Translations under genes and position numbers: made by a program
Shown: positions 7,384 through 32,022 of the stretch, piece by piece
Position numbering within the stretch: the stretch's first letter is position 1
How the letters are laid out: every line of letters starts with the position of its first letter
Origin: Propionicicella superfundia DSM 22317
Lineage (GTDB): Bacteria > Actinomycetota > Actinomycetes > Propionibacteriales > Propionibacteriaceae
Length of the DNA: 64,000 nucleotides
Assembly: GCF_000423465.1 (NCBI RefSeq)
Contig: NZ_KE384021.1
Location: forward strand, 497,115 to 561,114
Reading direction: 5' to 3'
The notes under the pieces: model-generated
Told to the model about the DNA's origin: nothing
The model's database searches: none
The model's input: the letters and a program-made list of their open reading frames with translations, nothing else

Positions 7384-7555
7384 TATAGTCGGCGGCGAAA
7401 CGTGCTCCGGGGTCGGTGAAACTCCGAACCGGCGGTGAAAGCCCGCGACCCGCGTCCTCACGGACGCGGCTGACCTGGTGAGATTCCAGGGCCGACGGTC
7501 AAAGTCCGGATGGGAGGCAGCACGGCGTGCGGGCGTGTGCGTCTGCACGCACGCG
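7384..7555 (+). promoter_or_regulatory. FMN riboswitch (RFN element) with promoter and expression platform
   Basis: The aptamer spans 7401-7524. P1 is CGTGCT (7401-7406) paired with AGCACG (7519-7524). The conserved FMN-aptamer strings are present: GGTGAAACTCC, ACCGGCGGT, AGCCCGCGA, GGTGAGATTCC, GCCGACGG and AAAGTCCGGATGGGAGG. A -10-like TATAGT is at 7384-7389. After the aptamer, GTGCGT (7537-7542) and ACGCAC (7547-7552) form a hairpin that is probably part of the expression platform. FMN binding should turn off the downstream riboflavin uptake genes. Confidence 0.95.
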
Positions 7556-28526: not shown

Positions 28527-29888
28527 TCACGGGCGTAGCGTGCGGCGGAACAGGTCGCGGTCGCCGAGGGGCAGGGCCGTCTCGGGAACGGTCAGGTCGA
28601 CCTCGTAGCCCTCGCACGTGATCTCGTAGCGGAACTCGTCGGGGAACGCGTCGGAGTCGTCGGCGAGCGCCGTGAGCCGGCGTGAGGCGAGCAGGTCGGT
28701 CCACTCCGCGGCATCGGCGGCGGGCATCTCGGAGAGCGCGACGGTGCGGCGGCGGACGATGCCTGTCACGCCGCCGGACCGGGTGAGGGTGAGGGTCGCG
28801 GCGGCGCCCTCGTCGTCCGGGGCCGCGGTACGGGCCGGGTCCGCGGGGAGCACCCCGACCAGCGTCCACGCGGAGGAGATCGCCCCGGTGATCGCATGAG
28901 CGGCGCCGTACCGCGCGGTCGCCGCGGCGATCGTCAGGGCCGCGAACGAGGCGAAGTCGCTCGACGGCCGGATGTCACCGCCGGTGAGCACGTCGTACCA
29001 GACCGGACCCACCGTCAGCCAGGCTCTTCCACCGGCAGCCACGGCCGCCTCGGCGAACGCCCTGTTGGGGATCCCGGAGTTGATGTGGACCCCGCCGTTG
29101 TCGGAGGCGGTCTGCACGTAGCCGGCCATGGAGTCGGGCTGCGGGTCCGTGCCGAGCCGCGGGTCGTCATAGGCGGTCCCGGGTCGGAGCATGCTGCGCA
29201 GCGCGACGCCCTCCACACCGGGCAGCAGCAGGTCCCGGCCGATCAGCCAGTCGGCGTCGCCGGCGTCCTGGCCGAGGGAGAACTGTGCGACCAGGACGCC
29301 GAAGACGTCCGACACCGATTCGTTGAGGGCTCCCGACTGACCCGCGTAGGCGAGGCCGGCCGTGTGCTCGGTCACGCCGTGGGTGAGCTCGTGCCCGATG
29401 ACGTCGAGGGACGCGGTGAAGTCGCCGAAGATCTCGCCGTCGCCGTCGCCGAACACCATCTGCTCGCCGTTCCAGAAGGCATTGTCGTACTCCGAGCCGT
29501 AGTGGACGGTGCCGATCAACGGGAGCCCGGCGCCGTCGATCGAGTCGCGCCCGAACTGCTCGCGATAGAACCGCCACACCGTGCCGAAGCCGTCGTAGGC
29601 GTTGTCCACGGAGGCGTCGCCGGACGGCGGCGCCCCCTCGGCGCGCACGAGGCGGCCGGGCAGGGTCTCGGCGCCCTGCGCGTCGTGGACGGTGCGCCGT
29701 GGGGACGTGGCGGCCGTGACGACCGCGGCGCGTGCGGCCGGGTGGTCGGCCCGCAGCGTCCGGTCGGCCCGCAGCGTTCGGTCGGCCCGCAGCGTCGAAG
29801 CCGCGAACGCTGCCGTGCCGGGGTCGGACGACCGGGCGAGCCGGTCCAGCAGATAGGGCGGAACGACGTGGCAGGGGTGTCGGTTCAT
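28527..29888 (-). CDS. M4 (thermolysin-like) metalloprotease fused to an emfourin-like domain
   Basis: A 453-residue protein. The short N-terminal part (about 1-75) resembles a protealysin-type propeptide (MNRHPCHVVPPYLLDRLA) and includes three TLRADR repeats. The M4 catalytic domain (about 80-360) has the zinc motif HELTHGVTEHTAGL, the third ligand in NESVSDVFG, and SDNGGVHINSGIPNRAF with the catalytic His. The last 80 residues (GVTGIVRRRTVALSEMP...FRYEIT) resemble emfourin, the small protein inhibitor of protealysin-like proteases. No signal peptide is visible, as for protealysin. A protease and its inhibitor in one chain suggests built-in control of activity. Confidence 0.85.
   Translation of the reverse strand: MNRHPCHVVPPYLLDRLARSSDPGTAAFAASTLRADRTLRADRTLRADHPAARAAVVTAATSPRRTVHDAQGAETLPGRLVRAEGAPPSGDASVDNAYDGFGTVWRFYREQFGRDSIDGAGLPLIGTVHYGSEYDNAFWNGEQMVFGDGDGEIFGDFTASLDVIGHELTHGVTEHTAGLAYAGQSGALNESVSDVFGVLVAQFSLGQDAGDADWLIGRDLLLPGVEGVALRSMLRPGTAYDDPRLGTDPQPDSMAGYVQTASDNGGVHINSGIPNRAFAEAAVAAGGRAWLTVGPVWYDVLTGGDIRPSSDFASFAALTIAAATARYGAAHAITGAISSAWTLVGVLPADPARTAAPDDEGAAATLTLTRSGGVTGIVRRRTVALSEMPAADAAEWTDLLASRRLTALADDSDAFPDEFRYEITCEGYEVDLTVPETALPLGDRDLFRRTLRP
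29743..29796 (-). repeat. 18-bp tandem repeat (three copies) in the protease propeptide
   Basis: CGGTCGGCCCGCAGCGTT occurs three times with one or two changes and encodes TLRADR, TLRADR, TLRADH in the propeptide of the M4 protease. The copy number may vary between strains. Confidence 0.9.
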
Positions 29889-30075: not shown

Positions 30076-30573
30076 ATGGAGGTCTTCCTGGCCCTGGGTG
30101 GCGTGGGTATCGCCCTGCTGCTGCTGATGCTCGTGGTGGGCGACCACTTCGACGGCCTGTTCAACGGCCTCGGCGGCGGCGAGTGGTTCACCGGCGCGGG
30201 TCTGGCAGGCTTCGTCGGTGCCTTCGGTTTCGCGGCCGCCATCGTCTTCGGGCTCACCTCCTCGATGCCGGCGTCCGTGGGCACGGGCCTAGTCGTGGGG
30301 CTCGGCGTGGGAGCGATCGTGACGGTCGCCACGCTCAAGCTGCGTCGCCTGGGCGACGCGGGCGGCCCACGCACCGAATCGCTCGTGGGCACCGTGGGCA
30401 CCGTCGTGAGCGCGATCCCGTCCGAGGGGTACGGCGAGGTGAGCATCTCCGCCCACGGCTCGCTGCACAAACTCAACGCTCGCTCGACGGTTCCCATCGC
30501 CCAGGGAACCGAGGTGACCGTCACAGACGTCCTGTCCCCGACATCCGTTCGGGTCCGCCCGACCTATCGATAG
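30076..30573 (+). CDS. NfeD-like membrane protein
   Basis: A 165-residue protein with two or three hydrophobic segments in the first 90 residues (FLALGGVGIALLLLMLVVGD; GFVGAFGFAAAIVFGL; GTGLVVGLGVGAIVTVATL) and a C-terminal OB-fold-like domain (SLVGTVGTVVSAIPSEGYGEV...TVTDVLSPTSVRV) as in NfeD/YuaF. These proteins pair with flotillin or stomatin homologues in membrane microdomains. It is 12 bases upstream of a flotillin gene, the usual arrangement. The ATG at 30076 has GGGAGG in front. Confidence 0.85.
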   Translation: MEVFLALGGVGIALLLLMLVVGDHFDGLFNGLGGGEWFTGAGLAGFVGAFGFAAAIVFGLTSSMPASVGTGLVVGLGVGAIVTVATLKLRRLGDAGGPRTESLVGTVGTVVSAIPSEGYGEVSISAHGSLHKLNARSTVPIAQGTEVTVTDVLSPTSVRVRPTYR

Positions 30574-30585
30574 GAACCCGCAGCA

Positions 30586-32022
30586 ATGCCTGCTTTCATC
30601 ATCCCCATCATCGGTCTCGTCGTCCTGTTCGTCCTCCTGGGCTGGTTGGTCGTCAGCCGCTACAAGGTCGCCGGCCCGAACGAGGCGTACATCATCACCG
30701 GTCGCAAGGGCAAAGAGGTGACCAACCTCGAAACGGGCACGGTCTCGACCGACCTGTCGGGGCAGAAGGTCGTCATGGGCGGCGGCGTCTTCGTGCTCCC
30801 CTTCGTGCAACGTCTCCACGTCCTCGACCTGTCCAGCCGCCGCATTCCCGTCCAGATCCGCGGCGCCGTGTCGGGGCAGGGGATCAAACTGAACCTCGAC
30901 GGCGTTGCCATCGTCAAGGTCGGTGGCAACGAGGATTCCATCCGGGCGGCCGCCCAGCGTTTCCTCACCCAGCAGGAGGAGGTCGAGACCTTCACGCAGG
31001 AGACCCTGGCCGGCGCGCTGCGCTCGATCGTCGGCTCCTTGTCCGTCGAACAGATCATCCGCGACCGCGCCGCCTTCGCCCAACGCGTCGCCGACGAGTC
31101 CGAGTCGTCCCTCACCGGCCAGGGTCTCGTCCTCGACGCCTTCCAGATCCAGGACATCACCGACGACGGCACCTACCTGGCCGACCTCGGACGACCGGAG
31201 TCGGCCCGGGTGGGCCAGGTCGCCGCCGTCGCCGAGGCCGCCGCACGCCAGGCGGCGGAGCAGTCGCGCCTGGCGGCCGAGCAGCAGATCGCGATCGCGC
31301 ACCGGGAGCTCATGCTGAAGCAGGCCGAGATCAAGGCCGAGACGGACGCGGCCTCCGCTCGGGCCGCGTCGTCGGGTCCGCTGGCCCAGGCCGACCGGGA
31401 CCAGGCGATCCTCGCCGAACAGGAGAAGGTCGCCGTCCGGCAGGCCGCACTGAAAGAGCGTCAGCTCGACACCGAGGTGCGGCGTCCCGCCGACGCCGAG
31501 CGGTATCGCGTCGAGACGGCGGCGCAGGCCAACCGGAATGCCTCGGTGCTGCAGGCCGAGGCGCAGAAGCTCGCGGCGATCGCGCGCGCCGAGGCCGAGT
31601 CCGAGACGCTGCGGCTGACCGGTTCGGGCGAGAAGGCGCGGCGCATGGCCGAGGCCGAGGCGCTGCAGGCGGAGGGCGAGGCGAAGGGTGCGGCCATCCT
31701 CGCGACCGGCCAGGCCGAGGCCGAGGCCATGCACAAGCGGGCCGACGCCTACGCACGCTACAACCAGGCCGCGGTGCTCGAGATGCTGGTCAGCGTGCTT
31801 CCGCAGGTCGCCAAGGAAGTGGCCGCGCCGATGTCGGCCATCGAGAAGCTCACCGTCGTCTCCACCGACGGGGCCGGCGAACTGCCGAAGACCGTCACCG
31901 ACAACGTGGTTCAGATCACCGAACTGCTGAAGAACACCACCGGAGTCGATCTGCAGGAGATCATCGGCAGCTTCGTCAAGGGCAGCGGTGGCGACAGCGG
32001 CAAACCTCAGGTCACAAGCTGA
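30586..32022 (+). CDS. flotillin-like membrane scaffold protein (YqiK/FloT family)
   Basis: A 478-residue protein: an N-terminal membrane helix (about 4-25), an SPFH/band 7 domain (about 28-220, SRYKVAGPNEAYIITGRKGKE...DGVAIVKVGG), and a long Ala/Glu-rich coiled coil (about 225-400, EAAARQAAEQSRLAAEQQ, ESETLRLTGSGEKARRMAEAEA). This is the flotillin layout. It forms oligomeric scaffolds in the cytoplasmic membrane. Operonic with the NfeD-like gene and closed by a perfect hairpin terminator. Confidence 0.93.
   Translation: MPAFIIPIIGLVVLFVLLGWLVVSRYKVAGPNEAYIITGRKGKEVTNLETGTVSTDLSGQKVVMGGGVFVLPFVQRLHVLDLSSRRIPVQIRGAVSGQGIKLNLDGVAIVKVGGNEDSIRAAAQRFLTQQEEVETFTQETLAGALRSIVGSLSVEQIIRDRAAFAQRVADESESSLTGQGLVLDAFQIQDITDDGTYLADLGRPESARVGQVAAVAEAAARQAAEQSRLAAEQQIAIAHRELMLKQAEIKAETDAASARAASSGPLAQADRDQAILAEQEKVAVRQAALKERQLDTEVRRPADAERYRVETAAQANRNASVLQAEAQKLAAIARAEAESETLRLTGSGEKARRMAEAEALQAEGEAKGAAILATGQAEAEAMHKRADAYARYNQAAVLEMLVSVLPQVAKEVAAPMSAIEKLTVVSTDGAGELPKTVTDNVVQITELLKNTTGVDLQEIIGSFVKGSGGDSGKPQVTS

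Follow-up and report, generated by a model that had tools for sequence, protein, structure and literature searches.

A protealysin-like M4 protease and an emfourin domain joined in a single chain in Propionicicella superfundia and its relatives

The gene and its domains

The window, the whole 64,000-nucleotide stretch of Propionicicella superfundia DSM 22317 that was analysed, carries on its minus strand a frame that is open throughout and translates to 453 residues. This single chain opens with a short propeptide, followed by an M4 catalytic unit; a linker of 21 residues then leads to the emfourin domain at the C-terminus. We took the start to be the ATG at 29888, the nearest ATG ahead of the conserved propeptide motif; a GTG farther upstream, at 30524, would give an alternative, longer frame of 665 aa. 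Start codons of relatives were picked by the same nearest-ATG rule and so provide no independent support for the ATG at 29888. The features are as follows.

28527..29888, minus strand: whole gene, protealysin-like M4 protease with a C-terminal emfourin domain, 453 aa plus stop
29709..29888, minus strand: protealysin-type propeptide, residues 1-60, with PPYLL at 10-14; the end at residue 60 is an estimate
29367..29618, minus strand: Peptidase_M4 N-terminal catalytic domain, residues 91-174 (Pfam)
29379..29393, minus strand: HELTH zinc motif, residues 166-170 (motif scan)
29307..29324, minus strand: NESVSD, residues 189-194 (motif scan), which we take to be the region of the third zinc ligand
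28851..29360, minus strand: Peptidase_M4_C helical domain, residues 177-346 (Pfam)
29073..29096, minus strand: GGVHINSG, residues 265-272 (motif scan), presumably the region of the catalytic histidine
28788..28850, minus strand: linker, residues 347-367, with low model confidence at 353-358
28542..28787, minus strand: emfourin domain, residues 368-449 (PF20242, E 3.1e-14)
28761..28781, minus strand: R-S-G-G-V-T-G loop, residues 370-376, with its R, G, G and G conserved whether the emfourin is fused or free
28638..28640, minus strand: Asp417, in all 189 aligned emfourin domains and, we assume, a candidate zinc-binding residue

The catalytic unit is recognized by Pfam as Peptidase_M4 (E 7e-30, 104.9 bits against a cut-off of 22.4) and Peptidase_M4_C (E 2e-44, 151.6 bits against a cut-off of 24.4), and the HExxH, NExxSD and GGVHxNSG motifs are all intact. 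Two NCBIfam M4 models also match the protein, both far under cut-off. By sequence, 2vqx, the protealysin precursor, is the nearest solved structure (residues 7-346, E 4e-105); residues 4-347 of the AlphaFold model superpose on it with a Z score of 42.8 over 296 residues at 54% identity. At the N-terminus, the PLN_propep match (residues 6-33) reaches 16.6 bits, under its 28.1 cut-off, and P10, P11 and L13 are invariant across 21 aligned fused proteins, the window's own among them. A hydrophobic signal peptide is not evident in this N-terminal sequence by eye. Judged by its sequence, the protein belongs to the protealysin-type M4 proteases. When the three catalytic motifs are sought in relaxed form, all 67 fused frames have them (a set in which some loci appear twice), and a strict scan flagged only three: one begins at a contig edge (L127), one has a variant propeptide motif (L129) and one has HEYTH, a valid HExxH (L084).

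The sequence-only reading had proposed that an M4 protease is fused here to an emfourin-like domain and that a profile search of the C-terminal region should recover emfourin. Both points stand: PF20242 matches the C-terminal domain with 53.6 bits against a cut-off of 27 (a separate genome search agrees), and the M4 and PF20242 domains, all above their Pfam cut-offs, lie in a single frame. In NCBIfam, no model matched the inhibitor domain.

We aligned 189 emfourin domains after removal of 11 duplicate loci, with some genomes nonetheless entered twice: 62 fused, 100 encoded separately just after an M4 gene, and 27 others with the M4 gene absent just upstream within the stretch examined. None of these domains, whatever the arrangement, lacks G373 or D417. 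All 62 fused domains also keep R370, G372 and G376, for which the figures among the separate domains are 86%, 99% and 99%, respectively. The R-x-G-G-x-x-G loop and the invariant Asp of free emfourins are therefore both kept wherever the domain is fused. The GG loop and Asp are likewise common to the window's domain and the emfourins of Klebsiella, Caballeronia and Mesorhizobium, and when the solved emfourin 6zyg is aligned, its Asp falls in the D417 column. Reportedly, a study from 2023 proposed that the emfourin aspartate binds the catalytic zinc and that a second loop, of hydrophobic residues, also blocks the enzyme; D417 and the GG loop of the window's domain would fit the zinc-aspartate mechanism.

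Many columns outside the loop and the Asp differ between fused and free emfourins. At position 425, for example, 59% of fused domains have Cys, whereas 78% of separate domains have Val. Residues 6 and 425 are the only cysteines of the window's protein, and a redox switch between them was considered and rejected because they seldom co-occur: among 59 fused proteins, 12 have both, 44 only one and 3 neither. In profile comparisons with 6zyg, the fused domains alone gave a weak match (E 0.05, though ranked first) and alignment A4 gave E 0.21. Alignment A3 gave E 1.3e-15, which says little about the window's domain because A3 contains a close Klebsiella relative. 6zyg was not among the matches listed for a single-sequence search with the window's domain.

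The four neighbouring genes that were scanned encode a deaminase, an NfeD-like protein, a flotillin and a PCMT. The NfeD-like (under cut-off) and flotillin/SPFH genes, at 30076-32019, are divergent from the protease gene. Among 231 loci, most with short flanks, the window's neighbour genes matched their own genome alone. Elsewhere in the window, an FMN riboswitch occurs at 7398-7527 on the plus strand (100 bits).

Occurrence and origin of the fusion

At an E threshold of 0.001, the window's gene is the only M4 match (PF02868) and the only PF20242 match in its 98%-complete genome. Within the family, the Propionibacteriaceae, PF20242 is found in 58 of 198 genomes with one match each, and frame analysis places 50 of these emfourins in an open frame shared with an M4 domain. 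In G608 the emfourin immediately follows the protease as a gene of its own, six have no M4 nearby, and that of G563, at a contig edge, is not assignable. Searching the 198 genomes for M4_C returned 60 matches in 58 genomes. Fifty-two are fused to emfourin, namely the 50 above together with G553 and G560, both overlooked by the Pfam search but recovered with a custom emfourin profile; one is the separate pair; three have no emfourin detectable by Pfam or the custom profile (G549, G551 and the second M4 of G557); three were left unjudged (G024 and G576 at contig ends, G045:C136 with a short frame); and one (G573) is under cut-off. Given these proportions, the fusion is the rule within the family and not an oddity of one genome. 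Fused forms also occur in four more families of the class (f3, f9, f11 and f110). Linkers range from 12 to 86 residues across the 67 fused frames and, by eye, most of them abound in Pro, Ala and Gly. A chance match, read-through or an assembly error is excluded by the above-cut-off Pfam score, the single open frame and the presence of the same fusion in dozens of other assemblies.

In a scan of named genomes, we analysed the best 80 of 585 confirmed loci. Eight are fused, from Propionicimonas, two Propionibacteriaceae, two Knoellia, Intrasporangium, Nostocoides and Actinotalea; at least two of these (L128 and L135), and probably L124 too, are also counted in the family set. Two loci have no detected emfourin. 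In the other 70, emfourin is a separate gene directly downstream on the same strand, with 14 to 153 bases between the protease stop and the beginning of its domain, which agrees with the earlier statement that emfourin is usually a separate neighbouring gene. Because the free versions lie directly downstream so consistently, the enzyme and its inhibitor seem to work as a pair. The parts were already known, and their single-chain form is a real, recurrent variant of a known protease-inhibitor pair.

Other arrangements of emfourin-like domains also came to light. Six proteins of the window's family (L100, L101, L102, L104, L105 and L106) join an emfourin-like C-terminus to an N-terminal region bearing W-P-D-S-C-L-G. 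None of the six genomes has an M4 match, and the PF20242 scores are low (26.9 to 32.5 bits); these proteins may be distant emfourin relatives with another target. Stand-alone emfourins occur in another family, f2 (L008, L009, L012-L015, L017, L018, L020, L021, L025, L026, L029, L030 and L108), with no M4 in the stretches examined and 3 to 11 M4 matches elsewhere in all 15 genomes. This suggests that the f2 emfourins could inhibit distant M4 enzymes in trans.

A quick tree was built from 82 M4 domains, a thinned subset of 174. It places all 49 fused rows within one 54-row set (SH-aLRT 98), the rest of which comprises 2 separate rows and 3 labelled ‘none’. A ‘none’ row reflects the limit of detection, since for L122, which was so labelled, Pfam identifies the neighbouring gene as an emfourin. 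The fused label requires at fewest 5 changes, compared with 25.7 in shuffles, and several inner forks are open. The pattern is compatible with a single origin of the fusion.

Some gene pairs have overlapping ends. There are two such protease-emfourin pairs in f3, another family of the order: in one (L259), a possible GTG start overlaps the protease stop, and in the other (L264), an ATG lies inside the protease gene but in a different reading frame. On a Klebsiella plasmid, the emfourin start and the protease stop overlap by 4 bases. Such pairs are plausible half-way states on a route to fusion.

Two viral contigs encode related proteases. The protealysin-like protease at L206:2689-3852 shares 64% identity with the window's protease over the best segment and pairs with it on the tree (SH-aLRT 85); emfourin was not detected there, and the protease adjoins a gene that reads by eye as lysozyme-like. 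On the second contig, a weak emfourin match (L210:3893-4144, Pfam E 0.0037, under cut-off) follows a protealysin-like protease.

Placement and role of the tethered domain

AlphaFold predicts the full chain with a mean pLDDT of 90.2 and a pTM of 0.75, with linker residues 353-358 under 50. The input was a 76-row alignment (A2) with 9 fused rows, including the window's own and one shortened by a contig end. The chain from residue 61, with the propeptide removed and alignment A5 as input, has a mean pLDDT of 92.8 and a pTM of 0.77. Both domains fold with high local confidence, and their mutual position is not fixed in either run. A docked domain would have been expected to raise the pTM clearly once the propeptide was gone, and no such rise was found between the two runs. 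The prediction thus speaks against a firmly docked emfourin domain, an argument weakened by the few fused rows, and docking is neither supported nor excluded by the models. 6zyg is not among the best 50 fold matches listed for either model, which have M4 entries at the top; the emfourin domain was modelled only inside the whole chain, where M4 entries dominate such matches.

So, is the tethered domain a brake? Because the inhibitor loop and the Asp are kept in all 62 fused domains and the fusion is recurrent, we favour, with a probability of roughly 0.6, the reading that this protealysin-like zinc protease is a latent chain with two brakes, of which emfourin is the in-cis one. The conserved residues suggest that the tethered domain may inhibit its own chain, and the variable, Pro-, Ala- and Gly-rich linkers are as would be expected of a tether. 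In the precursor, the propeptide would cover the active site first, as in protealysin, by similarity to 2vqx alone. With the propeptide gone, the emfourin domain would occupy the active site from its flexible linker. The joining of two genes into one chain would provide exactly one inhibitor per enzyme and could protect the cell that makes it. Emfourin is a picomolar inhibitor, and such an inhibitor tethered to the enzyme would lock it for good, so release or weakening would be needed: activity would then require that the linker be cut, the domain degraded or its affinity reduced. The brake seems dispensable in some members of the family, as three M4 matches have no detected emfourin.

A more specific proposal, which we put forward tentatively and at somewhat less than even odds, is a two-lock zymogen in which the propeptide acts first and the tethered emfourin next. 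The enzyme would remain silent in the cell that makes it and gain activity only at sites where the linker is cleaved or the domain is destroyed. If true, the fusion of an enzyme-inhibitor gene pair would have given rise to a metalloprotease that carries, in cis, a non-canonical zinc-binding inhibitor. It is speculative to place the action outside the producing cell or inside another one, because a signal peptide is not evident and the four scanned neighbour genes are not delivery genes.

The linkers bear on a different function. Their variability in length and composition would suit cutting, and a separate inhibitor protein is the usual state elsewhere, so the domain could act mainly in trans, or as an intramolecular chaperone and C-terminal propeptide that aids folding or brief latency, and then be clipped at the linker to work as a free emfourin, as in other bacteria. 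However, inspection of the linkers by eye reveals no conserved cleavage site, and were cutting required, separate genes would do the same job; we consider this unlikely. The fused domain might instead have lost inhibition and now serve as a substrate- or partner-binding module or a structural cap. The many columns that distinguish fused from free domains, such as position 425, and the lack of firm docking in the AlphaFold models could be read this way, but retention of the conserved loop residues and the Asp without exception among fused domains makes this loss of function rather improbable. Accidental loss of a stop codon, with function unchanged and the product kept as harmless, is easy to envisage from the short gaps in the 70 separate pairs among the best 80 of 585 loci and from the overlapping pairs L259 and L264, but is very improbable given fusions in five families and the single supported set that holds all fused rows of the tree.

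Comparison with known systems

The proposed in-cis brake can be set against the protealysin-emfourin pair of Serratia. According to PMC9505478, the emfourin there binds protealysin 1:1 in the region of the active site, the two genes share one operon, protealysin cleaves FtsZ and RecA, and the pair is proposed to be an antibacterial effector with its immunity protein. Since a tethered inhibitor goes wherever its enzyme goes, the fused pair argues that emfourin here serves first of all to hold the cell's own enzyme in check. By fixing a 1:1 ratio, the fusion makes the alternatives of an own-enzyme brake, an immunity protein against neighbouring cells and a maturation aid directly testable. Structural studies of how thermolysin-like enzymes are blocked by emfourin also gain natural constructs with enzyme and inhibitor in one chain. 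In the literature searched, with the founding emfourin papers outside that search, no emfourin-M4 fusion was met.

Protealysin of Serratia proteamaculans (2vqx) shares with the window's protein the catalytic domain and the overall fold, including the N-terminal part of the precursor. The match to 2vqx stops at the catalytic domain, and PMC9505478 describes emfourin as a separate gene in the operon, whereas here it is in the same chain. To the emfourin / M4in family (PF20242; 6zyg) the window's domain is linked by the above-cut-off match, the GG loop and the invariant Asp. It differs in being covalently joined to its presumed target, and the profile of fused domains matches 6zyg weakly (E 0.05). 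The usual emfourin layout, a separate gene beside the protease, is replaced here by a domain within the protease frame; this is no bar to membership because gene layout is not a defining property of the domain. The closest parallels are the M4-emfourin gene pairs of Streptomyces, Caballeronia and others (in two of the plasmid records compared, the second gene is annotated ‘protealysin inhibitor emfourin’). These have the same two parts in the same order as the window's chain, but as two proteins from two genes, where Propionicicella superfundia encodes one.
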